From assembly GCA_037903355.1 (NCBI GenBank), contig JBAJFE010000002.1:119501-183500 (forward strand): DNA of 64,000 nucleotides. The letters are read 5' to 3'. Every line of letters begins with the position of its first letter. Positions within the stretch are counted from its first letter, which is position 1. The notes below the pieces were generated by a model. It was given only the letters and a program-made list of their open reading frames with translations, made no database searches and was not told where the DNA came from. The position numbers and the translations under genes were made by a program. This document shows, piece after piece, positions 5,420 through 47,153 of this stretch. The stretch comes from Trichuris trichiura (Eukaryota > Nematoda > Enoplea > Trichinellida > Trichuridae).

Positions 5420-7311
<1,892 letters not shown>

Positions 7312-12131: not shown

Positions 12132-13205
12132 CCGTACATTGCCACGTATAAGAACTCCCTCCTACGTTAGCGAAGGGTGGTAATGATTAGCCCAGCAACG
12201 ACGGCGCTCATTGCTCAGGTCTAGATCAACTCTGATTGGTCAGTTTTCCGTGAATGCTAATCGGCCATTCAATTGAAACTGTCTTGCTTCAACTTCAACG
12301 CCAAAACTGATCATCTGCCGATCAGCGCGTGTTGTACAGCATTGCGTAGGCTACGACAAATGAATTTTGTTGAGTAGGTTTATTGGACGTCTATTACAAC
12401 TGTTGCATGTAAAACACGGATGAATAGATTGTAGAAGCAAACATGGTACATGACGCGGAAAACATCAGTTGCAGTGACAAAAGGGTTAAGCTAAGAATAG
12501 TCTTAGTCACTGTCTAGCAGTCCATCGTCTTCTGTGTCGTCCAACGGGGTGGAGATGGAGCACTTTCGGAAAGCCTTCACGACGGTTTCCCTCTTCACTT
12601 TGCTCCATGCCTTTATTACGAACTGGCACAGCAAGGTGAGCAATGGTGCTCGCATTTGTCCGCTGGCTGTGTACGTCTTCGGTCCGTTCGCCATCCATTC
12701 TTTTCACTCTTCTCGAATGTAGTTTTTAAAGGGCTTATTAATGCAAACATCCAGCGGTTGCAGGACTGATGTAAGCCCACCGTGTACTAAGGCTGTTTCT
12801 ACTTTGCTTTTCATTAAATGTAATTTTATTGTTGCTGCCACGTGACTTCGGAATGACTCTCACACCGGTAAGCTTCTGTTGTTACCGTGTCCAAACCTTT
12901 TTCTCCAGATGCTGTCAATCCTCAATCTCACACCCTGTCCGCCTATCCAACCGTTCTCATGAAAGTGGACAAAGGCGCCGGAAGGAAAATCCTCCTTTGG
13001 CGTCCTTTTCCTCTTAAATATGACCGTAGGCTTCAGCTTTATTCCATTAGCTAGACACGACAGCACCACCGTGAAGTGAGTTCTTTCATGTCTAGTGCTC
13101 TTCACTAGAATGGACCTTGTGCCTTTACTATCCATGGTTCTATTGCCAATCATACCGAAAATTATTGGCGTCTCATCCGTATTACTGATGTTGGCCAATG
13201 GAAAC
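12132..13205 (-). mobile_element. pogo/Tigger-like element, one end preserved
   Basis: The terminus CCGTACATTGCCACGTATAAG follows TA at 12130-12131 and shares ~170 bp with MITE-1. The element contains transposase remnants and is cut off near 13205, where a ribozyme-bearing fragment of another family begins. Confidence 0.7.
12503..13198 (-). pseudogene. pogo/Tigger DDE transposase fragments
   Basis: The minus strand at 12860-13198 reads ANISNTDETPIIFGMIGNRT, then SKGTRSILVKSTRHERTHFTV and SCLANGIKLKPTVIFKRK. This is the diagnostic first-Asp block of the Tigger/Jerky-type DDE domain. The minus strand at 12503-12694 supplies the C-terminal part (VVKAFRKCSISTPLDDTEDD). The region between, which should hold the other catalytic Asp residues, is frame-shifted. 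The N-terminal CENP-B-like DNA-binding domain is absent. Confidence 0.85.
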
Positions 13206-13262
13206 TAATTTTGAGCGATTATTAGGAAAATTGTACAGGACCAATACACTCAACTTCATTTT

Positions 13263-13300
13263 TCAGAGCTTTCGGAGCGCTCTAGTTCCGTCGTCAGTGA
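13263..13300 (-). ncRNA. hammerhead ribozyme motif (PLE-type), copy a
   Basis: Reverse strand: TCA-CTGACGA, stem II CGGAACTAGAGCGCTCCG, GAAAGCTC, then TGA. The conserved cores CUGANGA and GAAA are present. A three-pair stem I (TCA/TGA) flanks them, and stem III is minimal (A-GC-U before the cleavage C). It lies in a short isolated fragment of the foldback family (13245-13330). Confidence 0.65.
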
Positions 13301-13330
13301 GATGGAGGAGACCGACGTCTGGTGAGTACA

Positions 13331-17900: not shown

Positions 17901-20900
17901 AATAGCAGCAAACGAGACGGTGTAGTTTTGCGGGTAGAAAACGGAGCTTTCAGAGTACCGTCCGTTCTGTCATCAGCGTAAAGCGAAATGCAAAAGAAAC
18001 GAACAGCCAACTCAAATTTAGTAACGTATGTAGTCCGTAAAGTTGCAAATTTTAACGGATTTGTACCAAGTTTTTCTAGTGTGGAAGAAAACGGTAAACG
18101 CTTTTGTTTTGCAGCCAAGTATCAGTGAAGTTTTACTGGTGGAAAGAAGTAGGCGCAAAACCGTTTAACCCTGTGAAAGGGGATGCTTGGTCATTCGTCC
18201 TCTACCATAATGTTCACCTTTCGTGATGCCTATGCTCGATAACCTATGCGCTACTGTAGCACGCGTTCCTCCCTCATAGCATTTCAAGCGCTAGGACATA
18301 GGCTTAGCGTAAGCCTTATGTTCAGGTCTCCGTTTAGGTAAGGGAAGAACTTGACTGTCGGTACGTTTCTTTCTTTGACCACCGTACTTTACGCCTAAGC
18401 GTATGCCAAAGCGTAATTATCATGCTTGGGCGTAGGCTTAGGTGAAGGAAGAAAACGATTGCCTGTATTTTTTCTCCCTAGCCATCCTGTTTGCTTTTGG
18501 TTTAGCCTAAGCCTACACGTAGCACTTATGTTCTGGTCATAAATTCTGAAAGCAAGGCGTAAGAAGAAGTTACACTCTAACAGTTCTCCGTTCTGTCTGG
18601 CTTCTTCGTGCATAGGAATAATGAGTGACTGCGGAAAAATCGGAAGGGGTGAAGAAAGGTTCATTAATACTTCCTATTAAAAATGCCTGTTAATTTGCTT
18701 ACACGTTTTATGAGGCCACTTTTTATGAGCGCGCTTCAACTTAGCCTACTTGACTGCGCCAACCTGATCTTAACGAACATGACTTCAAGCCAATTTTGCC
18801 TAGAAATAATTGGTCCTGTTGCTATAGCTGCATTCACGTACACGCTATGCCTGACGTAACTTTAGTATACGTGATACACAGAAAGGATGTATAGTACAGT
18901 AAAACCCCCGTAAGTTGACCACCCAAAAGACTGAGGTTAACTGGTCAACATAGGGAGGTGGTCAACGTACGGGAATTGTGGATATAAGTGGCTCGGCTGA
19001 ATAGATTGCAGTTGAACCACCGTAAGTTGTCCACTCAACAGACTGGTCAACTTGCGGAGAGCAAACTAGCATTGCGTCCATATACCACGTCAGGCTAAAG
19101 CAGTCAACTTCCCACTTACGGAGGTTGTCCTTGCGTGTATTAACGTGCGGACAAACCAGCTGGCTAAAATTCGGTCAACTTATAGGAGGGAGGTGGTCAC
19201 CATATAGGAGTGGTCAACGTTGGGGGTTTTACTGTAATTGCAGAACAAGCGCATAGGTATGCTGTATACAGTATGCATGTACTACGTGTTACGCGTACGA
19301 TATTTTTCTGCTCTCATAGGTTTCTGCATCATATGCGTAATATGGAGGATGTATACTTATGTTAAACTGTTTTTTATACGGAATGTATGTCTTGTTGAAA
19401 ACTTTTAAGTCTCTGGAGCTTTCAGGTCACTCGTGACCCGTCTTCAGCGGTCTTGAATTGCAAATGGAATTTGTGAGTGCGAAATCAGCCTTCTGTTGTT
19501 TCTAAAGGTTTAAAGCGAGTGTTTTAAAGTCTTCTGTTGGTGGTTTTTTTTCTTTGTCTGTCAGCTGTCTTGTGCTCTTTATAGCTTAGTATAGCTTAGT
19601 TCCTTATAGCTTGTAGTATTTTTGTGTGCCTGTTGATTTGTTTTTTAAAACATTTTATTCCATTGTTAATTCACGTTTTTTTCTATCTATTTTTCATTTG
19701 CGTTCCACATTTGTCAATTCGTTTCTTTTTGTTTGTTCCATGTAGTATTTAATTTTATCCATTTTCCATTTGTTCCAGGGAACAAACAAAAAGAAACGAA
19801 TTGACAAATGTGGAACGCAAATGAAAAATAGATAGAAAAAAACGTGAACAAACAATGGAAAAAAATATTTTAAAAAACAAATCAACAGTCACACAAAAAT
19901 ATAACAAGCTATACGGAACAAAAGCAGAAGACATCTAACAGACACAAAGAAAAAACCACCAACAGAAGACTTTAAAACAGTCGCGTTAAACCTTTAGAAA
20001 CGATAGAAGGCTGAACTCGCACTCACAAATTATATTTATAATTTAAGACCGCTGAAGACGGGTCACTCGTGACCTGAAAGTTTCGGAGAATTACAAGTTT
20101 TCAACGGGACATACATTCCGTATAAGAAACAGTTTAACATGAAAATCCACAGTCCCGTACCAAGAAGTAACATTTACAGGATGTATACTTTCGTATTCAT
20201 ACAGGACATTCATGGAGGTTACAGGATTGGCGTGGCATACTTTGTCTATAAGCGGAATATTTGCGAAACCCACGGTTTCTATGCTGCACGTGTAGTTTTA
20301 ATCCAGTATGTACTTGCACATAAGGAATATTTACGTCTTTGATGGCTTATAAGTAGTATACATTGTTTGTAACTATGATAGCTGCGGCATAAATGGTCTG
20401 TACGGTATAGATAGGGTATCTATGCTGTATATAACTGCATACATAAGATATGAAATTTATGACTTGTTCATGATTTAATTTACTTCTAAAGAAGGCGTTT
20501 ATAATATCTGTCGTCTCTAAGATATACATGTAGTATCTGTATTATGCACACTTGTATAGAGAGAATGAACATTTAGCGTATGTATACTATGTATACGGTA
20601 TGCATTGCGTATAAGTAAGGTATAAGTAGGGTGTCTTTGATATACAGCAGGGGTGGGGAACCTTTTTGGTGCCGCGGGCCGTTTAGACGTTTATATGACC
20701 GTTCGCGGGCCGTATAGCATACTTAAACGAAAAACAGCCTGCTTTATTCGCTCGTATGTTTATCAAGTCACCCGTAATGGGATGCGTTGAACTGCTTTTC
20801 CCTGGCGAGGAAACTTCAAGATAAAAGGAAGAATTTTGAGACAATTCTGCAACCCAGTTGTCAAGAACATTATCGCAACTACAGAGAAGGAAATAACTTT

Positions 20901-23900
20901 TTTGTACTTCGAAGACGTAAAGCACAGGCGATCGGCGCAAACCGACGAGAACGATAGCGAGAGAAGGCGAGAACGATGCCAATGACTACTGAGCAAAAAA
21001 AGCAGAAGTGCTCTAGCATGCTGGACAGTCGTTCTCTCTAACAAAGCAATAGTCCACGCTACTTATGCGCGCGCACACACTAGAATGGCGCCTACTGCTT
21101 GTCACCGAGGAATAACAAAGTCGGTTTGTGGTCAGAGAGCTGTCAGCAACGCAGTCTTCTGAGCCAGCCTGACGTTCCCTGCTTGTTACGCAAGATTTAT
21201 GTTCTTACTAGGATTCACATAAAATACGTTTGTCGCCTTATGAAAAATAACTACCTACAATCACATTTCACTGAATCTCGCATCCATGTGCGGTTGCCCC
21301 AGCTCGTGGGCGGAAAATGGTCTCGCGGGCCGGACGTTCCCCACCCCTGATATACAGGGTTACGGTCACACGTGCAGTAGATATGGCATGTATTTACTTA
21401 CACGTGCAGTATATAGGGCATGTATTACTTGTCTGTAGTATTTATTTATGCCACTTATAGTATGCTGGTAGTATATTGCATATGTGCCGTTGAGACGCTA
21501 GGTATTACAAACATATTCTCTATAGGCAACGTTTACCACGCGTACACTGTAGGCACCGTAAGCGTTCTCTCAGCGCAACTGTGTGCACCAGAAGCATTAC
21601 ATGTGCGTCTGGAGATTCAGGATATCACAGATACCCAATTTTAAGGCAATTTATACCACGTGCATACTATAACTGGCATAAATAAATCCTGTAGGCAACT
21701 ATATATGCCTTATCTACTGCATGTGTGGCTGGGTTCCTTGTATATCACAAATGTCTTACTTATAAGCGATATCCTGTGTATATACCATAAAAACATTAAA
21801 TATTCCCTCTACGCAAGTGTATACAATATGGATACTACATGTATGCCGTAGCAATGATAGTTATCATAAATATTTTCTTCAGGTGCAACTTATACCATTG
21901 TAAATAATATAGATTTCATGAATGTCCTATGCATGCAGTTTTGTACAACACGGATACTACATCTATACCGTAGAGCCCATTTATGCCGCACCTATCCTAG
22001 TTATAAGCAATGTGTACCACGTAGGAGCTATGTACGATGTAAATATTTTTTGTATGCAAGCACATGCACGATACATGCTACACGTGTAGTATAAAAACCG
22101 TGGGTTTCGCAGGTATTTTGCTTACAGGTTAAGTGTGCCACATCGATCCTGTAATTTCCATGAGTACCCTGCATGAATAGGGTATACATCCTCTGTATTA
22201 CGCATATGATGCAGAAATCTAAGAAGGCAGAAAAACATCTTACAAGTAAGTTGCTGTATACAGCAGACCTATGCGCTTGCTCTGCAATTACTACGCGCCC
22301 CTTCTGTGTATCACATACGCTAGACTGGCACCAGGCAAAACATATATCTAAGTGAAGCTATGGCAACGAGGCGAATTATTTTTAGGCAAAGTTAACCTGA
22401 AGTCATGTCGGTTCAGGTCAAGCTGCGGTGCTCCATATTTCCTACGGTCAGTTGAACACACAATAACCCGCAGAAGTAAACAACAAAAAGTGGGTAGACC
22501 AGTGTTTCTCACTAAACGCCTTGCCAGTGCCCCCTTTTCAAATCACAGAGCTCGCCATCGCCCCCTCCCCCCATTCTGCTTGGCAAAATTCACGTATGAG
22601 CTGATTTTGTCTCCCGAACGATCAGCGTTAATGGTTCTTTCTGCCCAGACTCGCAAAGGAAACCGACGATGAAGCATGAAACTTAGGCGGCAACAAAGAC
22701 GCTGTCACGAACCATATCTGCATATGAGCAGACGCAAAAACGGTCTTTGCTCAAGCGGTGCCTGCTCATTGCTGTGCTAGAGCAAGCAGTCTTACTATTG
22801 CATCAGCCCTTCGCTGCATCGTTTCTCACCGTCTTCCTCGCCAACGTCCCCGTTTTGAACTAGTAGTTTTTCCAGCGCCCACTACCCGTTAGCTTGCTTT
22901 AACAAAGCAACTTCAGCGCCTATGAAATAGTCTTAGCCGAGAAAGATGGTACTTGACACTGATGAATTTACCTCTTGTGTACTCATAAGCGTAATATAGC
23001 GAGCGAACTTCGTTGTCAGGTTTGAAAACCACACAGAGAGAGCAGCTTTTCTACGTCCGGCTCTATGCTGCTACCCAGAGTCTGAGGTCACCTCCGTTTA
23101 CTATAAACAGTGTATTTCTTTTCTTTGTCGGCAAATCCGCAATGACACTAAGGCCACGCTCAACAAGGTACAAAAAAGGAAACGAGAGAGGCAGCTTTTT
23201 TTACTACATTCCGCAATCCTGGGTAAAAGCGTGGTATATCGCGTTGCAACCAGAAGGTCCTGTATCCATGCCTAAACTTTGGCTTGAGCTCCTAATTGGC
23301 CTGCAGCTCTAGCAACGCTTCCTCCAATCGCTGTTCTGCATTGTCAACTTCAGAGAAAAGGTCTGTGATCGAACCTCGCACGTCTAGCAAAAAGATATTT
23401 CCAAACCGTTCGAAGAAATCTTGATGCAGAACTCCAGATGACGCCAATACACTTCGACATTTTTTCATTGAATCGCCCTTTGCTCCTTCGCAAGGATTTG
23501 GAAGGTTGCAAAACTCCCACGGGCGACATTGTTTTTGAACTATAGAAGCTTGGAAACGAACGCCAGTTACGGTTTTCGTTTTTATCAAGTTCAGGTCTTC
23601 GCCTTGTAACTATAAGTCTGTAAGGCAATTCCATCGAATTTCGTATGTAGATCGGCCATACAGGCAATAACACCTTCAATTTTCTCCAGAGTCACACAAA
23701 GAGAGGTGTCCTCTTCACGAAACACCAAAACCGAAGCATGCGGATTGCAAAAGCGCGATAAGCAGGCTCCTTCCGATAACCCTCTTACTTCAGTATGAGG
23801 CAACAAACGGTGGAAATTTTCCTCATTCTCCTCGCACAACGGACCAAATAATCTACCGCTTATAAGCCTGCTCTTGATCCTATTCACCGCCGTAATGATG

Positions 23901-26900
23901 AGATGAAGGGAACAATAGAGGGCCTCATTTAGGCACTTCGCTACCAAGTGCTGACGTTGAATTACGCACAGAATGGCTAATACGTTTGGAACGACCTTCG
24001 AGTCTTGACAACATAGTTAGTTCCCCCCGGATGTAATGGCGGCAACTCCAAAGGAGGTCAAGTAGAGATAAGGAGAGATTGTGTCCAGTAACTTGCGTAA
24101 CCGGATTATCAGATTAGCGTGGAAACATTTCTGGCGGCAGCGACAAAGTGGAGTAACAGTTCCTAATGGAACAATCAAACGTATGTTGCTGGTAACGCTG
24201 CGTGCACCCCAGCGTCATACTGTAAGTCTGCCGGCCATCTTGTCCTGCCCTAGCCTCAGCCTAAACCTAAACATAAGGTGTGTGTCTTGGCTTAAATTTG
24301 GACGAGGGCAAAAAAGGATGAAAGTCATGCTGTCTAATGAAGACAACAAATTACGAGCACGCTGGTCAGAAAGGAACCTGCGCTTCTCTGACGTCGGGCG
24401 GCTGAGAAACAACGTCTGAGTAACGCGTAAAATGAAACTAAATGTGAAACAAGCGTACATACCATTCACTGGGGGAAAGAGACTGTCACAGGCGGGGCAG
24501 TCACTCGGGGCGGGTTTAATCTGATGATAGTAGCACGCATAGACAAAATAACAGTAAAGAAAGTGCATACCGTTCACTGCGGCAGGGAGACCGGCGCTGG
24601 CGGCGCGTCCACGGTGTCTTTCGCGGAAACAACGCAGAATGAGCTTTATGCCGTTTACCAAGACGCGGAGCGGTCCGCTGATCTTAGACGTTCTCTACGA
24701 ATCACGAACCGAAGCCCACCATGCACCACTGTTGCTCCATTGTGTTCTCCGTGCTAGGAATCTATGCGCAGCTGTTTCTTTCCCTCACCTTTACTTTTTT
24801 ACAGGAGTCAGTAAAGGAATTCCTCGGCAGGTTTTCCGTGGGTCAATAAGCGCACTTCTCGCATGTGCCACTGACGCGCTATTGCGCTCCCCGTGCCAAA
24901 TGCTTGGCATGTGTTCAGTTACCTGCAGTAAGGCGTCTCTCCCGTTGTTCCTCTAATCACACTTCATTACGCAGTATCGTTGCATATTACCCATTGATAT
25001 TGTCGCGTGTACTTCCGGGGGGGACAGTGTTGTTAGGATCCCGACTTTCTTCAAGTACAAAATGAAACCTCATTGGCAACCGACCATTGCGGACGCACCG
25101 TCAGTTGCGACAGAGATTACGTTTGTGAGGAGAATCTCTTTTTCTTTGCAGTAACTTTCCACTGCCTGAAAAATAGATTTTCTTTTGCTGTTCGTGACCA
25201 GTTTTCTTCTGAACAAAACTCCTTGAGCTAAATTCTCTTCCTTTGTAAGTCCCACGTATGCAAGCAGTAGCGCTTCATTTCCCGGCAGACGAGTTTCATC
25301 TAACTTTAAGGAGAACCTCGTACTTTTAACAAAATTGCACAACGTTTCTTCCTCAATTTTCCCATTGCGTCGGTACGCCGTTAGACTGTGTTGTTACTCA
25401 AAGAAATGCTTTTAATTGTCTCACCCTTTGGCGTGCACAAAACAGTGTGTAACACCTCGCTTACAACAGGAAGAAGTAATTCTTCACCGACGGCATTCAC
25501 TTTTCCAGACCTAGCGATCATTAACGAAACGTTAAACGAAGCACGCAGACTTGTCCATTGCTAATGCTGCTCTTTAAAAAAAATGTATTCGATAGAATAG
25601 GTCGCTTTCCAACATTTTAGCAAGGCGATCTGAAGTGGTTGAAATCCTTGCCTGCTTTGTTCGGATGTACTTTTGCGAGATATTTTTTCAATTTTGAGAG
25701 CTTCATAGACGTGTTCGAGAATGCTCTGTTGCAAAGCAGGCACATCGGTAACTGCTTATTACTTGGCGCAAGTCCGAAGCCGTACTTGAGGTAATCAGAA
25801 CTATATTACCTACATTTCCTTTTCGACTCTGCAGTTAGGAAGCCCGAACGAGAAAATTACCTTTAGGTAGCGCGCAACGAGAGAAAGTGGCTAAAGCTGG
25901 TTGTCTGCAGCTTCCTTTGCAGAAACTCACACAACTGGAGACAGGATTGTAATCGGCAAAGTTGACTATGGTTGAAAGGATTTTATGATATGCAACGATG
26001 GATACTTATATGGAATGGAATTTTTTGGAACCCAGAAAGAAAAACGCGATGAAACGGAGGCTACTAACAGTATGAGTAACCGAAGACCGAACAAAGAGTA
26101 GACCTGCCAGCAACGAGTGCAATTTCATCGCTTTAGATAAAACAAGAATTCATGCTGGCAAACGAAGCTGGCCAGTGACCCTTAACTTTTTTTGCTCAGG
26201 CGTAGGGACGTTTTGAAGAACGATATCTACGTCTGCGCTAGCATAGCTTTTTTCTACGGAACAGAAGTCTTTCCATGTGTGCCCAACAGTAAGCTACAGC
26301 GAACAGCGTGTATTTGTGCTCTGCGACAAGCTTTTGGTCTGGGCAGCGTCAGTAAGTGAGAGCAGACGAAAAGGGCATTCGGAAAAGAAGAGAAAAAAGC
26401 GCAACGCATGACCTTTGCCGACAATACGACACTGCTGCTATTTGGTTTATTGGCGCCTGCCTAAGCGTCAGTAACGTAAGGTATGCACTTTACGCGGTGG
26501 AACTATTTGGTGTCCCATTAGCTTTCACAGGGGGGCGGTACCGCCCCCTTAGGAAACACTGGGGTAGACTAAGGCGTCAGTAAACAAGCTGACTGAAGTA
26601 AACATATCGTAATCACGTTAACAGCGAATTAAAAGTCATTTTCTTGCATCGCGATGCTTCTGTTCTGTTCCTGAAAAAGCCACTAGGAACTACAGAGATA
26701 TGTAGAGGAAAGTAGAACAAAAGACATCTGGTATAGCGTCTGGCGCGTCAACTGAGACCATGAACAGCTGTAGAATAGTAAGACAAAGCAAGAACTACAG
26801 AGGCACCATTATGTCTGACGAGTCGATTGCTAGCGCAGTGCAAGAAGCTCTGTTTTCATGGTGATTTCCATAACAGTTGTTATAGGCAACACAAACTAGA

Positions 26901-29900
26901 CATTGCCCCGTTTGTTTAGTCATCCTGTTGCTCAAATCCTTCGTCGCTCCAACAGCTCTTACTACTGCTCTGCATTAACAAAAAATTTGCGAAAACAGTT
27001 TTCTGTAGGCCGCTTATGCTCAAACCAAAACTAAATATAATTGAAAGGTTGATCCTACTTTTTCTGGGTAAAACGTAAATTAGAAAAGCAAGCGAAGTGC
27101 ACAGTCTGCCTGTTCTTGAAATCATTTGTTGGCCAAGGACACTGCACAGTCTGCTAAGTTTAAACCAGTGATTCTCACGGTGGGGCATGTGTCCCACCGG
27201 GGGTCCTTTTGACCTGTAGAGGGCACATGCCCCATCTAAGCGATCGTGTTGAAGTGCACAGAAAAGTATGGCCTGCAGGTCAGATATTGTGCTTGTCTGC
27301 CTAAGAGAAAGCTGCATGCTGTTGCACCCCACAATTCTGACTGACTGGCAGAGAGGACCGGGGGAGCCGACTCGGAGGTGGGAGAGTAAGTGTTGGACAC
27401 GCTATCTGGGAAGCGTTTTCCCCATAGAACTTTGTGCGGTACCTACCTTATGACGTCCAGGCTGCTCTCCGCCTTCCCATCGAGGCAATCAGTGCGCTCG
27501 AAATTGACTAATCAGAATTTGGGGGGGGGGGCAAACTCTCGCAAACGTTCACAGAGAGGCTCTGGTGATCTTGACTTTGAAAAACACTGGTATAGACACT
27601 AAAACAAAGCCGTCGATGATCAGTCTGCACTGTAGAATATAGTTGTCGCGGTTTGATGGCCTCTTACTTCGTTGCCATCACGGTTCATCAGTTCCTGATT
27701 ATCAATCATCACAATGCTGTGACATAATGAGGGCGACTGCTGCCGCGGTTCGGAAAATTCCGGAGACGAACGCTACAAAACCTGAAAGCTGCACTTAATG
27801 AATAGTGACACAAGAGTCGTAATGAGTTACTTCGTAGGTTTTTGCTGGTGAAAACGAAACGCAGACAGTTGACTGTGAAGTTTCATTGTATGATTCCAGA
27901 GACCAAGTTCTCAATTCTACAAAGAGTGTCCAAGGATTGTAAGTCGCTTAAAGCCCCTATACGCTGCTGAAGTTTCGCTTTTGCATTTAGTTTTTTTTTT
28001 CGTGCCGTTCTTCCGGGTAACTACTCGATACGGTTGACGGATTCAGAAGTTTGTGGGAAATCTGTTAGCGTTACCATTGACTTGAAAAGTGACGATGTGC
28101 CATCAAGCAGTCTTTATGCCACTGGCTTTTCTGTGCAGGTTGGTGCAACAAATGCGAATAGGTCCTGTTTATCCTAACCTTTTCAGGGGGAAATTAAACA
28201 TTCGGATATACCATCAGAAGTAGTGACGCTGCTTCTCTACTCAAAGCAAAATTCAACTGTAAGTTTTCGTTTATTATCCGCGCTTCATATTTTGTTACCA
28301 GTAACATTGTTTCTTGGCTCCAGCAAAATTCTAATGGTGCTCTATCTTTTCCAATAAACAGGCTGCTACTCATAATAAATATGCAGGTTTATGTGTTCGT
28401 ACGCGTAAGCCAAACGTTCAAGATATTAGGCCGCCCTAAATCGATCTTACAGCTGTTTATTCAATTTTAGGCGCAGGATTGCGAGACACGTCTACTAAAA
28501 AAAACTGATCAGGATTTGTTTATGCCTAAAGGTTTTTACTATTCGCGCAAGATTGAATCTTCTCCGAACGGATCATATAGGTTCCCGTGCGTTGGTCTCG
28601 GTAAACACGCAATTGTACGTTGAAATTATAACCTACTTTGCTGTGATATTTTTAATACTTAGATACCAACTTACCGAAAGGGTTTGTTGACGTTCCAGTG
28701 GGACCCAAAGTACTTGTTAGCAAAAGTGGTCAATCGACCAGTCATCGTAAAAGTATTGGAATGTGTTGCATTCAGGTAGCTGAGTTTTCTGTTTCAGGAG
28801 CCCTTCAGAGTAACTGGATTTGCTGTCCAAGGAAGTGTTCTTTGGAATGAAAAGGTAAAAATCCTCAAGATTTATTTAGTATATTAATAGTATAATATTA
28901 ATTTAGTATGTTTAGTGAGGACAGTTCACGAAAAGTGACTTAGTCGTCCACAATCACAACAGCAGTAACTTAATTGTTCAACTTGTATACTTAAGAAAGG
29001 ATGATTGGGAAAAGACTATTTCGTAAACTACCTAAGTTTTACTTTCATAAATACAGCAAATCCCCCGAAGCTGACCACTCCTATATGGTGACTACCTCCC
29101 CAAGTTGACCGAATTTTGGCCAGTTGATTTGTCCGCAAGTTAGCCAAGCCACTTATATCCACTTCCTGTACGTTGACCAGTTTTCCGCGGTCCGTTTGGT
29201 GGTCAACTTACGGGGATTTTACTGTAGATACTTTATCTGATATTCTTGTCCGTTCGTTGGCCATTGGAATGGGCAAACCTTTACAGCTATCACATTTCTT
29301 AAGCGATCTTACTGTTGGAAATGCCATGGTGAGTCGACAGTGCGCTTTGATCGTTTGCGTCAAGGAGTATCACAGAAGTTCCAAATTTCGAATCCCTATG
29401 ACAGATAACAAGAAAGAAAGCCACTTCGTTTATTGAGTAAATAATATTGATACTTTATTGGGAATAGCAATTGGTGGTCATTGTCTACTTTATAAAACTT
29501 GGGAGATGGAAAGGTGTATATTACCTGTTTATATGGGCAGAATGTGTTTGCAAAAGAAAGGACGCTTATTCTTCACTAGGACTACGCATACGTACGGTCC
29601 GTTGCAGTAAGAATTATTCGCTGGTTTCCCACTAGGTACGATTTTAAACCATTGCTCTGGGTAAACGTATCCCTCATAGCGTTTTCTCTTGCAGAATGCG
29701 GTCTCGTTCCCTTTTTCGGTCTGATGAGGCCCTCGTAGTATCGCTGAGTGTTTGAACATCGCTTGCGTGGCAACCGATCTCTTCTTGCTATTCTAGTACA
29801 AAGCTACATTTTTTATCTATCCCTAGTGTGGACCTTGCAAGCAGTCTAGTTTCACGAAACAGCTCACTGCCGCTACATTTAGCTCAGGAATGCCTATGAC

Positions 29901-32900
29901 TGAAATACAAATAGGTTTCGCAGAACGCGTGGAGTTCAAGGAGTTTCCGCTCGTAAGCAATTTTACTGGGTGGAAAGAATAGACATGTAACGAAGTCTCT
30001 CTCTGTTCTCGTCCACCCAAAGCGAGCGCAGGCCGCGCTCCGATCTCTGCGCGTTCTCTGGTCACGCACAAGCGAAGCGGTGATTCTACTGTGACAAGAA
30101 CGTTTATGACTCATATCAGATGTCACAAGCTGATAATGGCATTAACAACATTGCAAAAGCCTGGAATGGCACACTAAAAACAATGCATGCGTCATCTTCA
30201 GTGGAAACTTGCCACAGACTTTACCTGCGATTTCAAAAGCTTTTTGCCTAACGCTTAGGTCCACAACATTAATGAAAGCTGCGGCAAACAGGCCAGGCCT
30301 TAAGAAAGCGGAATGTCAGGATGCTTAATCAGAATGTTAATTTTGAATCATCAAAGGGATGAACTAACCACCGAAGAGTTTTGGGGGAAGCAGAAGGAAG
30401 AGAAGAACCAGATAGTTATAAGAAGCAGGAAAGTACTTGGCGGCTGCTGCCCACGGCAAAACTATCAGGTGCTCTAGAAACTATTGAACAGCGCTTACAA
30501 TGTTTGGCACACAATGATTGGTAACGCGGAACGCAGCTACGTTAGCCTTGTCTGAGCTACCTTGGAGCCATGTAAGTAACTGCTGTACGAAAGAACATTT
30601 GCGAAACAAAAAAAGCTGAGATTCTATTTTACTGCGATGAAGAAACATTCTGAAGACGATGTAGCGCAACCTTATACGTCTAATAAGACCTCGTATCGAC
30701 CGTAACTGAGGCTAGTGAAATGAAAAACTTATGGATTCCAGTGGACCACCATTGGAATCCTTGAAAAAACGGGTCTAGTATGCTACGAGGGCGCCGGAAG
30801 TGGAGGCGGCTACTTCAAAGCGTAATCTGCGACTCTACAGCGTAATAAATGGTTGTTATGGGCACAACGGGACGGACGTTATCGTCAGGTTTAGTGAAAG
30901 CAGGTGCGCATGCATTGAAGTTACGGGAAACACAATGGGGCCTGCAGGTGTTCAAGTTGAAACGTCGTGTAGGAATTCGTGAAAAACATCAGCTGAGGCG
31001 TGCCTTGGTAGACAGGGTAAATCTCATTCTGCGTTATGTCTGTCCCGGGATCTAGTGACAACTTGCCATCGACAAGTGGAGGCACCGTAAGGAGGCACCG
31101 ACGCCTTCTGCCTGATTAGGTACATCTGAGTGAACCCGTCGGATGCGCCTGCAGCGAAATCGACGCGTCGCCTTCGTCAGGGTGAGCGCCTGCGTTAGCA
31201 GTACGTATGCTTTTTCTCTTTTTCCGTTACTCATTGCTCGCTTGTTCAGTGATCGCTAAATAACGTTACTTTGCGCTATGCTTCTTGTCGTTTGCGCCAC
31301 GGTCAAAACTGCAAAACCCAACAGCAGCAACGAACACGCGTCATTTTAAGGTTTAGGCTTAGGCTTAGGCTTAAGCTTAGGCTAGGGCAGGACAGGATGG
31401 CCGGCAGGGTTATAGGACGCACTTGGAAACAATTACCAGAACGGCCAACTGTTTCCAGATGTGCAGCGTCTGTTTCCAGATGTGCAGCGTTCCTTCGCTG
31501 ATACGCATCGCTCGCATGTGTACACAGTGAACAAAAGCTTAGGTCACCCATTGTTCAGGTGACGTAGTAATGATCGCGTGACCGCCTTTGAAGTTGCCGC
31601 CTCAACTTCCGGCGCCCCCGTAGCATACAAGACTCGAAAAAACTTGTTCGTTTGCTAGGTACGAGGTCAATTATTTTAGAATTGAAAGAACTTCTTTGTA
31701 TCTTGAGAACTGGGTGTTTTGTAACGGGTTGAATTTTCATGGTTGTAAGGTCTTCTACGGCTTTTCCCGTTTTTTCGTTGTGCTGTTATCTGTAATTAAA
31801 TTAAAACAACTGCTCTACCAACGGATGGATGAGCCGTTATTAAGAAAAAGTACATATATCAACGCACTCAACTTTTTTAATGTTCAAAGCTTTCGGAACT
31901 AGAGCGTTCCGAAAGCTCTGAACATTAAAAAAGTTTAGTGCGTTGATATATGTACTTTTTCTTAATAACGGCTCATCCATCCGTTGGTAGAGCAGTTGTT
32001 TTAGTTTAATTACAGATAACAGCACAACGAAAAAACGGGAAAAGCCGTTCAAGACCTTACAACCATGAACTTCTTTGTATGGGTGTAAAAACGCTGAGAG
32101 TGTTGTTCCTGAAAGTTTCTCAGAACTCTATCTGTTGTAAAGAGTTCTATCATAAAAGTTACCCACTTAATATGTCGCCGCCATAAATGGGAAAATCATG
32201 GGATTCAGATCCTATGAAAAAAAGGGTCCATATTTTCGTGCTCGTAGAGGTTGATTAAAGAGCTCAGACAAAATTATTATTTCTGTTTTCAACGCAGTTT
32301 AATTACAATTTTGCCTGTTGTAAACAATTTTCCTGGGGCTCTGAACCAAGCCGTGATTTTCCTATTGTTTACATGTCTCCTTTAAGTCTATTTCACATAA
32401 CACGAGATTTCCCCTGATTCTGCAGCAATCGAACTCACGTTATACGAGAGCTACCCATATACAGCCTCAGCTGAAATGCAACATGAGCTGTACGAACTGG
32501 TGAAACTTTAAGCCGAATCCCTACAAAGCATTCAATCGATCGTCAGTTCACGGCTTCTCAGCATTCTTACCACCTAACCAGATTCCTCTAAGAACGCTCA
32601 CTTCCTTACGGTACTGTGGCCTAAAAACGGCAGTGAAAGCAACTGTGTCTGCTTCTGTTGTGTATCAGTTTACATGGGCTTACTGCAAGAGGAACACGTC
32701 ATCTCATGGTACAGTAGGTCTTCTTTCACTGAGGAAAGCTATGGCACTCCCGTCGTCGTTAATGCTGCCGAAGACTAAACTTAAGTTCACGCCAAACGAA
32801 ACAGACGCATTGTGGCTACGACAGTAGCGAGAGGTAACATCGTATCGAAAAAAGACGAACGCCACAACAATACAGGCATTCCGATTAACAGCTAATTAAT

Positions 32901-35900
32901 CATTTTGAGTAATGAACTGTTAAAAGCGGCAGCTTAGGTTGTTTACCGACAATATGTATGCGTTTTCTTTTTCATAGGTGGCAGAATGCGTTCTCTTTAC
33001 TTAAAGAACACGGAACCCCTTTCCATTTGATAGTCTTGGGCAAGGTATCGCCTGGTTCGTCGCATGGAACGATTTTTTCTCGCAACTATAAGCATTGTCA
33101 GTACTTAGGGAGCAATTAACAGCCTACCTGGTGAAAAGACAGATTGCAGTGCGAAAAGAAAATACCGGTAGCGAATAGTTTAGTGTTTGACGCTTTCAGA
33201 ATTTATTTTATTGTAAGTGTGCCGACGCTACGTCCTATGGCTGTTTGTTTGAATGTTATAATACTTGTGTGAACACTTTTGCACTCTGTCTTGATGTTCA
33301 GTCTAAATCAGATTAGAAATAGAGCGCCACTTTTATAATAGTTAAACTCACGGTATGTAGCAACGCTCTGTTTCGCAACTATTTACTCAAAAACGATATC
33401 GCAATGACAACCAGCGACAACTTGTTCGGTACCACGAACTACGCACGGCCCGTCTTAGCTTGTCATGGCTCTTATATACTCTCAAGGTCAACACGGGGAG
33501 ATCATAACAACAACAGGAGGGCACCCAGCTTTAGAAGGGAAAACACCTAGTCACACGATAACAACAGCTGCGGAATTCTGCCCGCTGACCCTTAATTACC
33601 CGATGCCGGACTTGTTATTCGGCACACAGTAACAACAAAATTGCTTTGACTGCAATTACTTTTTACGGGCAGTGGTTTTTGTTTTCCATCGCAATATAAA
33701 ACGATGAAAGGTGAGTCCTGTTTTTTGCTGTAACTGTTGACGCTATCTGAAATTGTGGTTGTAAGGTCTTCTACGGCTTTTCCCGTTTTTCGTTGTGCTG
33801 TTATCTGTAATTAAACTAAACAACTGCTCTACCAACGGATGGATGAGCCGTTATTAAGAAAAGTACAGATATCAACGCACTCAACTGTTTTATTGTTCAA
33901 AGCTCTCGGAACGCTCTAGTTCCGTCGTCAGTGAGGTGGTGGAGGAGGTGTTATTCTCCGAACGGTGTCACATAGGCTCATGTGACAATAGGAATGGGGG
34001 TCGAGGTCAGCGCGGCAGAGAGCAACACTTGGTTTTACTAATCAGTGGGTCCCAAGCCGAGCTAACCTCTTGTCCTTTGTCACGGTTGATGGTATGGTTA
34101 TGGCGGATGAAAAGAGCCTCCTTAACCCGACGGAGATGTAAGTGGCTCTCGCGACAAATAATCTGCGGCTGTAGGAATGCTTCCTCTCAATGCTCTCTCG
34201 ACCTACAACCGCAGATTATTTGTCGCGAGAGCCACTTACATCTCCGTCGGGTTAAGGAGGCTCTTTTCATCCGCCATAACCATACCATCAACCGTGACAA
34301 AGGACAAGAGGTTAGCTCGGCTTGGGACCCACTGATTAGTATAACCAAGTGTTGCTCTCTGCCGCGCTGACCTCGACCCCCATTCCTATTGTCACATGAG
34401 CCTAGGTAACACCGTTCGGAGAATAACACCTTCTCCACCACCTCACTGACGACGGAACTAGAGCGTTCCGAAAGCTTTGAACAATAAAACAGTTGAGTGC
34501 GTTGATATCTGTACTTTTCTTAATAACGGCTCATCCATCCGTTGGTAGAGCAGTTGTTTAGTTTAATTACAGATAACAGCAGAACGAAAAACGGGAAAAG
34601 CCGTAGAAGACCTTACAACCATGAAAATTCAACCCGTTACAAAACATCCAGTTTTCAAGAGTATCTGAAATTGTGTGAAAAAGCAAACTTTTTCTGAAGG
34701 ACGTTATTAAAATGGAACAAACCACGAGAATAGTATGTTGTCTTCCCACCGGAAGTTGAGGCGGCTATTTCAAAGCGTAATCTGTGACTCTACTGCGTAA
34801 TAAATGGTTGTTATCGGCACAACGGGACGGAAAACACAATGGAGCGTGCAGGTGTTCAAGCTGAGACGTCGTCTAGCAATTCGTGAAAAACATCGCAGGT
34901 CAACTGTGCGAGCTGCAGCGAGCCTTCGTAGACAGGATAAATCTCATTCTGCGTTATGTCTGTCCTGGGATCTAGTGACAACTTCCTATCGACAAGTAGA
35001 GGCACCGTAAGGAGGCACTGACGCCTTGTGCCTGATTAGGTACACCCGATTGAACCCGTCGGATGAGCCTCCAGTGAAATCGACGCGTCGCCTTTGTCAG
35101 GCTGAGCGCCTGCGTTAGCAGTACGTATGCTTTTCTCCTTTTTGCGTTACTCATTGCTCGCTTGGTCAGTGATCACTAAATAACGTTACTTTGCGCTATG
35201 CTTCTTGTCGTTTGCGCCACGGTCAAAACTGCAAAACCCAATAGGAGCAACGAACACGCGTCACGTTAAGGTTTAGGCTTAGGCTAGGGCAGGACAGGAT
35301 GGCCGGCAGGGTTATAGCACTCAATTGGAAACAAGTACCAGAACGGCCAACTGTTTCCAGGTGTGCAGCGTTCCTTCGCTGATACGCATCGCTCGCATCA
35401 GTGCACAGTGAACAATAGCTTAGGTCAGCCATTGTTCAGGTGACGTAGTAATCTCCACTTGACCTCCTTTGAAGTTGCCGCCTGATTTTCCGGTGGGGAG
35501 ACAACATACAAGACCCCAAACCACTTTTTATGTTTTATTATGGAAGTCTGAACTGCGTTTCAAAACTTATATTGTCGCCTGCTTATTGAGGATAAAGAAC
35601 TGAGGACCTGGTTTAGCGACGTTTCATATTTAGGGACCAGGAGTTAACGGCGCCAAAATATACGTAGACAAAAACTTCATCACTTCAACAAATGAAGCCG
35701 GTCTATTTACAATAAGTGGCGTGAAGGTTGGCAACCACTCTATACTGGCAAAACGTTATGGTTTGGAGTTCTCGCCGTTGGACATAACATTTTCAAGCAA
35801 GACCATTTCTTTATCACCAATAATTGTGCAGAGGCAAGTTATTTTCCAGTGATGGGTCATGCGTGAGTGACGGTTTATCGCTACTAGGGTTGTTTTAAAT

Positions 35901-38900
35901 GATTTGTTTTTGTGTGACGATAATTTGTGCTATTTTTTAGGATCCGACAATGTGGAAAAGTTACGGTCACTCATTTTCCGTCAAGTGTAGCCACGTTAGC
36001 CCAGAGGAAAGTTGTATTCACTGAAACCAAGAGAAACGAAATATTATCGACGACAGCCGACAGAGACGGGTACTTCTGCAAAATGCTGCCGCATGGCACC
36101 TTCCTCGTTGAGGTAGTATTCCGTTTTAACACTGCTGTTTACTTACTGAATCAAAGAGTTTTTTCATGTTTGGAAAATTACGCTTCACCGTAAAAGTAAT
36201 ATCTGTCCATCAGTTGTGCAATGAAACTTGACCTGCGCTGTATAAATAAATGTATGATAGCTGTTATTGCTGTCTTAACTCCTTGCATTTTAGCCGCAGA
36301 TTCTTTCTAATGAAAAAGCTGCTGGCTTTGTGTTAAAGCCATCCAGCATTAAAGTGACCGTGGCAGACAGAGCGTTGGAAGACATTACATTCCGTCAGTT
36401 GGAGGCAAGGATTTCTGGCCGCTTACTTTGCATTGGTAATAAGAATTATCTTCTGTTTAACGTTTTCTGTTTCACTTTAGAGCAATGCAGTGATGTCCAT
36501 GTCAGCCTCTTTCAGGATGGTGTTAAGATCAATAGAGTATTGGCAGAACCGAGTGTTGCTCCAGCTTATGAATTTCAAAATATATTTCCTGGGATGTACA
36601 CAGGTAATGAAAGTATTAATGAAACTGAAATGTGTGATTTATCTGCAGAATTGATCCGTTCGTTAAAAGATTTTTTTCGGAACTTTCAAGACTCCTTACG
36701 TCCAGTCATCAGTGAATCGGAACGATGTGCAGTAAAAGTTTTACTGCACATCGTTTTGGTTCACTGCTGAGTCAATTTCGTGAGTGAGTTCCATAAGGAA
36801 ACTGATGTTATACTACTGAAAAGCTACGGGTTCGGTATTAGTGAAACTGAAAATGTGGTATAGTCTGCTTTTTCTTTATTTTCTTGCGGTTACCAACAAA
36901 AATGAACAGAGATTGGATGTCACGGAAACGAGTATGCTCAGGCGCACTCTTGGAATCAGTAGACTACAGCATACCCCAAATGGAATAGCAAGATTATCAA
37001 TGGGGATGGCGCCTATGGTGAACAAAGTCAGGGAAAAACGCGTAGGGTGGTTGGAGCATGTACTCTCACGTTAAGATAATCACCCTGGGAAAAGGCTGCT
37101 ACTGCACACTTAGAGGGAAAACGCACATCAGGAAAACCCAAACTAAAATGGATGGCTAAAATAAAAGCTGGTCAAAATGAATTACAAATCATTTACGACC
37201 AAGCACACAAGAGACGCAACTGGAAGAACATTACCAGAGCCGCAGACCCCACGTAAGTGGGAAGGGTGCATACGTTTCAGCGCGTACGGTTCGGCGTACA
37301 CGATTTGTACTAATGAAATCTCTGCCTCACTTATAATTTTCGTCTGTAGACAATCTCCCTTTGGTTCAGAGCAGCGGACATTTTTCATTAGTCGTGTTTG
37401 GAAGGTTTTCTTTCAGGGGGTTTTAGTTATCATAGTTAACTCTCATGAGCTTTTCCTGTTTGTTTTGTTGTATCATGCTGGAACGTTTTTCTCAGTGTTG
37501 CAAAAACCAAACCAGGAGCTTTGCTCAGCTAAGAAAGGCTACTCCGAAATTAAACGGTAGATAGAGATGTAATGGCGGCTAGGCAGCAGCAAGCATGGCC
37601 TACAGAATAAATAGAAGCACGCGCAGGAAGGATGGCAGATACTTCTGGTACCGGAAGGCAAACATACGTATCACATTCAGGGCTTTCTTTCCCTGCGGAA
37701 CGTCTCCAGCAGGTAAACTTCCGTTGTTTTACAACCATACGTTTTACTGAGTGACTGACGATAGTGGACAATCTTTCTCTACGTTCCAGAGAGCATCGCG
37801 TTTTCCCTGTCATGCTCTCCAGCCTTCCTTTCGATGGCGGTTTCGTTTTCATCCTATCACGTTTCTGCATTGTCTGGATTCGATGTGACTTTTTCCATGG
37901 GTGCCTTTTCATGGCACATGGTCAAACTTTCCGACTTGCGCGTGTGAGCATTTTCATTGGCGTGTGATCATTCGCCTTGGCGTGTCTGGGATTCTCCTGG
38001 TCAGGTGTTGCAAAGGTACTTTCGCAGGACAGGTGCGTCTGAACGTGTGTACAGGTTTCCATTTTCCCACTTAAAAGCATTGCGTTTGAATCGAACTAAA
38101 GATTTATGATTTCATGAGCTCCCATCTTCGTACGGATTCGTTACAGATGTTTTTCCCCATAGGGTAAGTTTCCGTGAATGTATTTATGTACGCATCTGCC
38201 TAGTACTTTTCCATGTGTTATTATCCCCTGAATATCTTAAGTGCAAAACGTTCTGTGCCTATCAGTGTGCTTGCCTTAGCCGCTGGACGAAGCTGGTGTT
38301 CATGACAGCAGCCCTAGGTCGTTGCTCCCACACGGGTGATCATAGGGTGATCCGAATTACTCCTCTTTTCTGTTAGGTAGACCTGGGCAGTTTGCAGAAC
38401 GTCATGTGGTCATTGTTGTTACCTAGCTCATTGTTTCCGCAGGTCAGTCTCTTTAGGCTATTGTCCTGTCATGGGTTACTGTCTCACTTCAATCATTTTC
38501 GTGTAGAATATAAAAGTTTCTTGTCAAGGAAATGTTCCGTTACAACAAATAACGTCACAATATTCCTCAGTAAAACAGCATAGTCTCATAAATTTGAGTT
38601 TTAGCCTTAATCGCTTGGTACAAAACCAGCGTATAAGGCGATCCTTCAGTGCAACACAATAAGGTTGGCATTCAACCGAAACGCTCGTTGCATTTTCATC
38701 TGTGAAGCTTCAGAAATCGCTTCAACACTCGTTTATTAAACTGCGCCATATTTAGCTTTCTGTACTGGCTTAGAGTACGAGCCAAGTCGCTAAGGAGCGT
38801 TATCCCCTTTACCTGTTTGCTAATTTGCGATACGACCACAAGAAGTAATAAAAATGTTCCCAAAAATAATATAACGTTACGAATCCGTTTTAACTCAGTT

Positions 38901-41900
38901 GAAATTGACTACAACGAATGCTTCAATTATTAATCGTTTGAATACTGTCTAACAGATCCGTAATACGTCAAATGTATCCTTGTAGTAGCCAAAGGGTGAC
39001 CGTCACTTGTGGTGAAATGGGCGAACCGCCGCATTGGTGACATTTCAGTGTCCCTTTCCGAACAGTTTTGTGAGGACCGGTTGCGCCTCTGCCAGTTGGA
39101 AGGCCTTCATTATTTCAAAGTCGTTTGGAGACATTTTGCGAGAAAATCGTCCCAAACAAGTTTCAAATCAAAATTTTATGCTCAGTCTGGCGAACGTCCA
39201 GCAAAGCGCCTAAAATATGTAGCAAAGTCTCCAAACAACTTAAATTTTTCTATTTCAAATGGTGAATCTGCAGCAGGCCTTTGTGGCAGAAAATGTGGCA
39301 GCAGTTCCCCTAAAGAAGCATCTCAGCACTGATATGGCGGCACGGATCCCCCTGCTTCTTCACGGTTGCCTTATCCCTGGCATGCACTAATATTCAAAAA
39401 TTAGTAGTAAACTGATGTAGCGCGGGCTGAACCGACAGAATGAGAAAGGTGAACACTCATTTATTCGACCAGAACGTTCGCAAGCTTCAAACCGAGAAAA
39501 ACGATCTCACAGTCCTTCGTCCTGTCCTTATATATAGTTCTCTGGTCGCTGTCGGGTCAGGTCACATGCAGCACCTAGTCAGACAACGTGGCTATCATGT
39601 GTGACCCGGGGACAGTCTCCGTTCGCTGTTTTCGTCAGTGACCGCCAGGCAGTTGGCGGCCCCCTGGTCGCACGACAACATGTTTACAACTGGACTATCG
39701 TTTTATACGTTATACATTCACAAATAAAGAGAAATTATTCGTAAATACGGCTATCGTCATATACGCCAGCATACGGAACGTTTTAACCTTTCATTCTACG
39801 GAGTCATAGCCGCGGCAAATGCTGCAAAGTGAAAACGTTGGTTCTTCAGTCTTCATTATTGCAGCTCAATGGAAAGTAACACCATTAGAGGTGCGAACTT
39901 GTAAACGCACGATCGAACGAAAGTTAGTTTCGTTGGAAAGCATGTTCGGAACCATGAAGGCGTGCGCCACGGAAGCATAATGCATCAGAACCAGGCGATG
40001 TGGAAACGTAATGGCCTGAAAACGAAACCGCCTCTGAAACAAACCTTCGGAAACACAGCTGGCGAAACAGTTCAGCCGCAGATATACCGAAAAAGAGTGG
40101 CCATTGGTGACAGTCACCTGGTAGAATGTATCGTTGCAGGGCACTGGAAATATACCTGGTAGAAACGTGCCGCAAAGAGAGGAAGCGTACCAGCGTGAGA
40201 GCTAAAGCTCTTCTGAAAAGAAACATTAGTAATATCGCTAGCGAAACACAATGTACGCTGGCCTGAATTAAACGAAAGTTGCCCATTGACAGCATTCATA
40301 AGCCATATATGGGATACCATTCGCACGATTCAATTGTGCACCGAACTGAACGCGCTAAACTGTATGTGTCGAATCTTATACGCCAAAACGTATGTGTCGA
40401 ACTGATCTGCTTCGAAGCTGGACTTGCGAACGGAAAAAATATTTTTTCTGCCAGCTGTCACACATACGTAGGTTTTATATCTTATATTCGGCAGCGCGTT
40501 TCTTAAGTTGGTAAGGCCCTTGGTATTATGACTTCGTTTGCTGGGTTTAAATTGAAATTATGCGTCCTTTCTGTCGTGAAATTACAGGTAAATTTTTAAA
40601 AACACATTTCCAACTGGGATGATTGTAGCAACGTTTCGATTCGCAACGATTTACTCAACAACGATATCGCAATGACAACGATCGCCAACTTGTTCGGTAC
40701 CGTGAACTACGCACACTGGCCACCTTGGCTTGTCATTGCTCTTATATACTCTTAAGGTCAACACGGGGCTGATCATAACAACAACAGGTGGCACAAAGCT
40801 TTAGAGGCGAAAACATCTGGTCAGACGATAAAAACAGCTGCGGAATCCTGCCCGCTGGCCCTTAATTACCCGATGCCGGACTTGTTATTCGGCACAATGA
40901 TGTTACTGGCACAAAAGCCTTATTGCCTATCCTATCAAATAATAGACCGTCTGATTATTCGCTGGCCCATTTGCGACCGCTCTATTAAAAATGCAGCGAA
41001 TTGAAAATAAACGCTTATTGTCCTTAACAACTTTTAACTTTCAGCAGAAGGGTAGAGGACAGCTCGGCACGACCGGATCCGTTCTTCTCTCTTCTGTGTT
41101 ATCCCTGTTTTCACGCAGGCATTTTGAGTTCGACTTACTGTGCTGTAACCGGCTGCAATATTTTGCTGCCGCTGAGTGGTAACAGTGGAAGAAAAACGCA
41201 GTTGTTCTTGCTAGGGTTTTTATACTGCTTTCCTTAAAAACTGTGCAGCATAATGGCAGCAAGTCCGTGCAGTACTTTGTTACAGTTCTGTTTCTGTTTC
41301 CAATGTACGAGATGAATGAATCCATCTACCGCAACTCGCGTCCGATGTCCCTTAGTGGCTCGCTGTCTTTATGCTGTACAATTTGTAAGCTGACCAGCAT
41401 AAAGGCTCTGGCGACAACAACTGCGTTTTTCTTTCCCTGTTTGTACTCAACGGAAGCAAAATGTCACTGCTTTTTACAGCGCAATAAGATGGTATTTTCA
41501 TCTACCATCATGGTCGCGTCAAAACAGCCATAAACGAGAATAAAGGAAAAGAGAACTGGCCTGGGAGGATTGATGGCAGAAAGTTGGCGGCAGCGAGTTG
41601 CCCGTTACCGCATCAGAAACTGTTTGCTCTTAACAGTCAAAAGTCTATGTATTAATATAAGCGAGGGTAGGCTCATAAAGCGTTTCATTGTCACGTTAGC
41701 GACTTCGTCAAAAGTTGATCATGTGCTCATAATTATTCAATTGCGCTAACTTGAGTGATATTGTTGTTGCGAAATGTCTTTGTTTGATTTCCCTCATCAT
41801 GTTTTTTCTTTTAGCATGAAATCCAGTTTTATAAATTTTTTATGTGCATGAACAAAGTAACGCATACAGTCTTGACCGTTTTCAGTTATCACAGATGAAG

Positions 41901-47153: not shown

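Follow-up and report, generated by a model that had tools for sequence, protein, structure and literature searches.

How does a nematode genome come to hold short palindromes with a ribozyme-like motif in each arm? The question is raised by a 64,000-nucleotide stretch of Trichuris trichiura DNA (contig JBAJFE010000002.1, positions 119,501 to 183,500; hereafter the window), in which a preliminary description had picked out four palindromic insertions, P1 to P4. Each of these is made of two 5′ leaders of Penelope-like elements (PLEs) placed head to head, with the RNA 3′ ends facing outward. Most likely each arose by one bilateral target-primed insertion, carried out by a Penelope-like protein with reverse transcriptase (RT) and GIY-YIG domains, in which both cut ends of the target served as primers at two adjacent internal sites of the element RNA.

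All four palindromes are inverted repeats, with blocks that are 86-98% complementary; P2 and P3 are near-perfect, as had been said of all four, P1 and P4 less so. The exact 13-14 bp target duplications reported at P1, P2 and P3 are present (Table 1). The outer ends are unequal, one arm being ~25-40 nt longer, at the right end in P1 and P3 and at the left end in P2 and P4. Because the left arm of P4 carries this tail, the palindrome ends near 45760, ~25 nt further out than the boundary of 45785 first assigned to it. On sequence comparison, P1-P4 fall into three families, P2 and P3 belonging to one.

The nature of the arms is indicated by copies elsewhere in the genome. The tail of P2 and P3 reads MKIQPVTKHPVFK and that of P1, read by eye, MKIHSPVPRSNIY. 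At locus L182, a P3-type leader passes directly into an open reading frame (ORF) beginning MKIQPVTKHPVFKNIL, and at L029 a P1-type leader passes directly into one beginning MKLYGPVPRSYIFKTIQG; each also has an inverted leader in front. In the related copies L045 and L029, Pfam finds RT and GIY-YIG domains within a single ORF, the combination that marks an endonuclease-containing PLE; in the ORF of L055, RT alone passes the cut-off used. Since the leaders of L182 and L029 run into the ORF and related ORFs hold both domains, the arms of the P3 and P1 types are the PLE leader, to which the longer arm adds the ORF start. The shorter end (tail−) stops at the start codon, as seen for the P3 and P1 types, and the longer one (tail+) reaches ~35 nt into the ORF. 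The P4 type has the same arm layout; the identity of tail and ORF start covers the P3 and P1 types. A leader (pseudo-long terminal repeat, pLTR) at the ORF start, an optional tail of 30-40 bp, inverted leader copies and short duplications are all features by which PLEs are recognized, and all are found here. The P3 arms also encode the C-terminal end of a Penelope-like protein, as proposed before, by identity with the ORF of L055; Pfam gives no domain match in this ORF piece, which is very short.

The source genome (72.7 Mb) was searched with the tips of the arms. The P3 family yielded 1,146, 1,069, 1,080 and 866 first-look candidates, the P1 family 653 and the P4 family 234, figures that should not be taken for copy numbers; 40 candidates were scored per search, and 69 P3-family, 39 P1-family and 31 P4-family loci were examined, 139 including the four window copies. 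Further copies, most pairs having target duplications of their own, were found on many contigs. Simple outward pairs account for 45/69, 26/39 and 15/31 loci in the P3, P1 and P4 families (86/139 in total), the pair class being one that demanded outward order; other orders, such as a plus arm before a minus arm in L092 and L137, were classed as 'other'. The P3-family table leaves out L055 and L013-L016, together with L009, L010 and L012, which repeat loci already counted; L015, one of those left out, looks tail−/tail+.

The two ends of a pair are almost always unlike. One tail+ and one tail− end are present in 44 of 45 P3-family pairs by direct probing (43 of 45 by alignment ends), in 14 of 15 P4-family pairs and in 23 of 26 P1-family pairs, the remaining three (L104, L108 and L158) having one alignment end at neither site. 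One P3-family batch, L062-L081, had been chosen with a tail-containing query; the rule holds in 17/18 pairs there and in 27/27 elsewhere in the family. An independent choice of ends would give mixed pairs in at most about half of the cases. The prediction that follows is that any single insertion product should have one tail+ and one tail− end. Our search of the open-access literature found no earlier report of such a near-obligate one-tail rule, or of the symmetric target to which we now turn.

Simple outward pairs mostly lie within target duplications of 11-16 bp. In the P3 family the duplication is exact in 43/45 pairs and of 11-16 bp in 37/45, 14 and 13 bp being commonest; for the P1 and P4 families the search for duplications extended 45 nt from the arm ends, so that some of them may be due to chance. 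Outside the duplication the target is dyad-symmetric: its flanks, compared at 54 sites with the orientation set by the tail, are mirror images. Same-tail pairs, one duplicated site and all duplications that were microsatellites or fell outside 11-16 bp had been removed from this set. Position −6 has A16 C0 G3 T35, i.e. T in 35/54 (p 8e-8), and position +6 has A in 37/54 (p 4e-9), which on the other strand reads A15 C0 G2 T37; the duplication starts with A in 31/54 sites and ends with T in 32/54. The element abuts each duplication on its inner side, so that priming must be from the 3′ ends of the duplication-carrying strands, which often terminate in TT. Such symmetry would fit an enzyme working as a symmetric dimer. 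For 12/67 insertions tested (exact duplication ≥9 bp), a paralogous empty site of 75-93% identity exists, that of P1 lying within the window itself. It is unlikely that P1-P4 are assembly artefacts, because the arms differ, most pairs have their own duplication and these paralogous empty sites are found.

The inner ends show a different regularity. The P3-family pairs comprise 90 arms. The reference-arm interval 231-235, on the upstream side of the ribozyme core and ~13 nt from it, holds the inner end of 41 of them, whereas two end at the predicted ribozyme cut (276-279), 32 elsewhere downstream and 15 upstream. The fixed point may correspond to the 5′ end of the RNA, and the contrast with the cut suggests that ribozyme-cleaved RNA seldom serves as template; the idea that ribozyme-processed 5′ ends provide the main template is left unsupported. 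The inner ends of the two arms differ by more than 3 nt in 32/45 pairs, and the 45 pairs have 43 distinct junctions. The centres of 36 short pairs comprise 8 overlaps, 5 direct joins and 23 junctions with filler; P2 and L063 are joined at the same place, inside the self-complementary stem II. Of the 43 pairs with unlike ends, 22 have the longer reach in the tail− arm and 8 in the tail+ arm, while 13 are equal within 3 nt or extend to the reference end (p 0.016); in short pairs alone the figures are 18 versus 6 (p 0.023). The effect is modest, and for long arms the reference arm, through its length, restricts the comparison.

The variable centres, together with arms of the P3 and P1 types that correspond to the leader of an element with an ORF, make it most likely that each insertion creates its own palindrome and that the palindrome does not propagate as a unit. 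Retroelement-type, target-primed insertion of Penelope-like origin, as put forward in the preliminary description, is supported. Its suggestion of amplification inside one gene has to be abandoned, the same structures occurring on many contigs and in three families, and its separate non-autonomous form is not clearly one, given arms of the P3 and P1 types that are the leader of an ORF-bearing element with its first codons, joined at ever different junctions. Inverted leader pairs have, moreover, already been reported in PLEs (PMC3846280).

We propose the following course of events for each palindrome. The endonuclease, as a symmetric dimer, would cut both strands ~13 nt apart, often leaving 3′ ends in TT. 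Each 3′ end would then prime reverse transcription within the element RNA, either at the ORF start codon (tail−) or ~35 nt inside the ORF (tail+), the usual outcome being one end per start site. Both cDNAs would extend toward the RNA 5′ end, often to the fixed point just upstream of the hammerhead, and would be joined head to head by end repair, with small overlaps or filler, the repair leaving the duplication. A start in the leader before the ORF would produce short palindromes, as strong-stop products, and one in the leader behind the ORF long ones such as P3. Outward RNA 3′ ends at both junctions, a single duplication around the pair and a symmetric target are what bilateral target-primed insertion should leave, and all three are observed. 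A comparable two-primer event is LINE-1 twin priming, in which two primers at one target yield an inverted product within one duplication; in LINE-1, the internal position of the second primer varies and there is little overlap between the segments, whereas here the starts are no more than ~35 nt apart and the arms do overlap.

More tentatively, PLEs might normally insert in this two-sided manner, with two polymerases in line on one RNA, the leading one starting from the start codon (tail−) and the trailing one ~35 nt behind (tail+). A single RNA with one site of each kind would in itself account for the pairing of unlike ends, for the similarity between the two arms and for the more frequent longer reach of the tail− arm. 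If true, in-line two-ended priming would be a distinct insertion route for a eukaryotic retroelement, with leader-only palindromes as its strong-stop products. Alternatively, one site each may be used because two RNAs sit in a complex whose active sites are not equivalent. Arms of seemingly different haplotype initially supported two template RNAs (L131, 8%; L011, 14%), both states being shared at 21/102 differing sites against a null of 2.8%. After re-alignment, the differences in L131 and L123 proved to stem mostly from indels or from the alignment itself, whereas L011 and L056 are diverged copies; the residual single-site discordances, e.g. in L066, are only suggestive.

Two known systems bear on this proposal. 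Penelope elements of Adineta vaga have inverted pLTRs, mostly head to head, with a 31-bp tail optional on one inverted pLTR; pLTR and tail extend into the ORF start, the duplications are of 8-10 bp, and the arrangement is explained by self-priming (PMC3846280). The T. trichiura insertions share with them the inverted leaders, the tail on one of these, its extension to the ORF start and the short duplications. They differ in that A. vaga has few copies and a tail called 'optional', whereas here three families follow a near-obligate one-tail rule, with longer duplications, a symmetric target and many leader-only insertions. The Poseidon protein PAc of Anolis carolinensis, a predicted dimer, cleaves and extends both strands in vitro; it has two internal RT start sites bounding a tail, 111-118 nt into the ORF, an AT-rich ATT target and a hammerhead near the ORF start, and ribozyme-dead RNA is still inserted in vitro (PMC11167929). 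Two-strand cutting and extension, two internal starts bounding a tail, an AT-rich ATT target and a hammerhead near the ORF start make the two systems alike, but the starts here are at the start codon and ~35 nt inside. In the sections of the 2024 study that concern us, the steps after priming are left to be validated, and neither inverted copies in genomes nor the pairing of tails inside one copy is connected with two-strand priming (PMC11167929). The insertions described here tie the two-strand priming and two start sites of PAc to a genomic product, and the long-known inverted pLTRs and optional tail would be explained as one event. The pattern of ends suggests how PLEs, a poorly understood class, insert.

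This pattern also speaks against the self-priming of Arkhipova et al. (2013), in which the template folds back, so that the second arm is copied from the first before the resulting hairpin is integrated. That mechanism was put forward for rotifer Penelope elements from junction palindromes (PMC3846280); it would make the arms within a copy alike, as they are here, and the centres of P2 and L063 fall in stem II, which is self-complementary and could let a hairpin prime. However, an arm copied from the other should share its template's end, so that both arms stop at the same template position, yet like ends occur in 1/45 P3-family pairs, the other 44 setting a tail against a discrete stop before it. 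Given, in addition, the unequal inner ends and the filler at 23/36 short centres, we consider self-priming unlikely. Short palindromes of similar size are numerous, which would suit a self-contained non-autonomous element, resembling a foldback element or a miniature inverted-repeat transposable element and copied as a unit, but identical terminal inverted repeats and a constant interior would then be expected. Here the two ends are unlike, one having the tail, the arms correspond to the leader of an element with an ORF and the centre varies by copy, which makes this origin very improbable. We give still less credence to two independent one-sided insertions, or to leader recombination, as the process that put the arms side by side. 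Single-arm insertions with duplications do occur, and the loci classed as 'other', which are mostly compound, number 7/69, 4/39 and 7/31 in the P3, P1 and P4 families, but in most cases the two arms lie together inside one duplication, and the tail pairing would not be expected from unlinked events. Orientation is weaker evidence on this point, because the pair class required outward order.

Several observations weigh against one bilateral insertion per palindrome. By direct probing L079 is tail+/tail+, and in the P4 family L167 is tail−/tail−; L055, which is longer than any other copy read, has two tail+ ends and no clear duplication, and around P4 itself we found no clear target duplication. 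Single arms make up 17/69, 9/39 and 9/31 loci in the P3, P1 and P4 families, and at least five of the P3-family singles (L094, L096, L127, L132 and L133) have a duplication with no visible second end or tail+ tip; at another single locus, L134, ~10 nt of the tail+ tip can be made out by eye beside the far duplication. Arm divergence is 1.7% within a copy versus 3.5% between copies (35 pairs), which self-priming would also give. With PAc in vitro, the start site showed no difference between the strands, and the relevant part of that study reports no pairing within a molecule (PMC11167929). The loci examined are, moreover, best matches from one genome and not a random sample.

Hammerheads had been predicted in each arm of P1, P3 and P4, and their test by the Rfam covariance models goes formally against the preliminary description, with no hammerhead match at E≤1 in the window. 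A model of our own, made from 18 other copies, none from the window and none with the stem II of P3, matches all six arms (E 3.8e-16 to 4.2e-5). The core is intact in five of these arms and altered in the left arm of P3, which has GAGA for GAAA; because relatives of P1 and P4 were included in the model, only the P3 matches come from a lineage unseen by it. As for the ribozyme halves reported at the centre of P2, this centre does lie in stem II, and the model match is weak and partial (E 0.25). The window has 5 core matches, whereas 200 single-base shuffles gave 0.19 on average and never more than 2. In 121 distinct instances, selected for the core and a paired stem II, H17 is C79 U31 A10 G1 (C, U or A in 120), and AGCU follows GAA in 99; a CUGANGA / GAA core and an H17 other than G are the marks of the PLE-type type I hammerhead. 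Stem I triplets pair above the shuffled level (1/2,000 shuffles as high). In stems I and II of the 18 sequences, 93.8% of cells are paired versus 85.0% when shuffled, and the covariation score is reached in 0/500 shuffles; two of five covariation measures are not significant (double-change pairs 40/500, further pair types 111/500). The predicted ribozyme cores are supported by these compensatory changes. The AGCU stem III without a loop could presumably pair only between two molecules.

Animal small retrozymes are short units dispersed in animal genomes as head-to-tail tandem repeats with canonical type I hammerheads (PMC7229834). The present insertions are likewise short dispersed units with type I hammerheads, but their main form is the inverted pair and their motif the minimal PLE type; arms in the same orientation occur in a few compound loci (L149, L122).

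Other matches to our hammerhead model lie in the window. An old single P3-type arm on the minus strand (13212-13311, 82% identity) contains one at 13259-13304 (E 2.2e-8), and the adjoining 12969-13211 is an empty-site paralogue of the L078 insertion. A match on the minus strand at 17937-17983 (E 3.7e-6) falls outside the arms detected by similarity and perhaps belongs to another Penelope lineage. A weak one (36673-36719, E 0.08) lies beside a short, perfect-looking hairpin.

Table 1. Palindromic insertions P1-P4 and associated features, in window coordinates.
Feature	Position	Strand	Remarks
P1 palindromic insertion	19359..20177		tail− end left, tail+ end right
P1 left target duplication AGGATGTATACTT	19346..19358
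P1 right target duplication AGGATGTATACTT	20178..20190
P1 tail	20139..20177	+	by eye the initial codons of a PLE ORF; L029 has a related ORF start
P1 left-arm hammerhead motif	19409..19454	-	predicted cut at 19416
P1 right-arm hammerhead motif	20045..20090	+	predicted cut after 20083
Paralogue of P1 flanks without insertion (empty site)	22078..22291	-	78% identity
P2 palindromic insertion	31702..32066		tail+ end left, tail− end right; centre in ribozyme stem II
P2 left target duplication GAACTTCTTTGTAT	31688..31701
P2 right target duplication GAACTTCTTTGTAT	32067..32080
P2 tail	31702..31740	-	start of PLE ORF
P3 palindromic insertion	33758..34661		tail− left, tail+ right; arms also with C-terminal end of PLE ORF
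P3 left target duplication TATCTGAAATTGTG	33744..33757
P3 right target duplication TATCTGAAATTGTG	34662..34675
P3 tail MKIQPVTKHPVFK	34621..34659	+	first 13 codons of PLE ORF
P3 left-arm hammerhead motif	33893..33938	-	one core change (GAGA)
P3 right-arm hammerhead motif	34439..34484	+	predicted cut after 34477
Inner end common to many related arms (P3R position 232)	34433	+	possible RNA 5′ end
P4 palindromic insertion	45760..46258		tail+ end left (about 45760), tail− right; duplication not clear
P4 left-arm hammerhead motif	45861..45907	-	predicted cut at 45868
P4 right-arm hammerhead motif	46138..46184	+	predicted cut after 46177

A few minor observations remain. The P3-type leader at 34520-34560 holds CCGTTGGTAGAGCAG, which we take to resemble a tRNA D-arm. 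The centre of P1 (19693-19826) scores below the gathering scores of the microRNA-precursor families MIR4239 and MIR837, presumably because any long hairpin scores in this way. Elsewhere in the genome, L084, L085 and L089 are copies of a larger repeat, with both flanks in common, around one tail+ P3-type arm, i.e. a leader inside another repeat. The ORFs at 5439-7311, 56620-57369 and 60178-61456 resemble one family, presumably of hAT/ZBED-type transposases; three pieces tried from them had no match in Pfam. A long inverted repeat of 783 nt, 98% complementary, lies at 52383-53165 and 55544-56326, with more inverted blocks nearby. The ORF at 49458-50273 has a reverse-transcriptase match just below the Pfam cut-off and DUF7047 above it, and is probably another retroelement.
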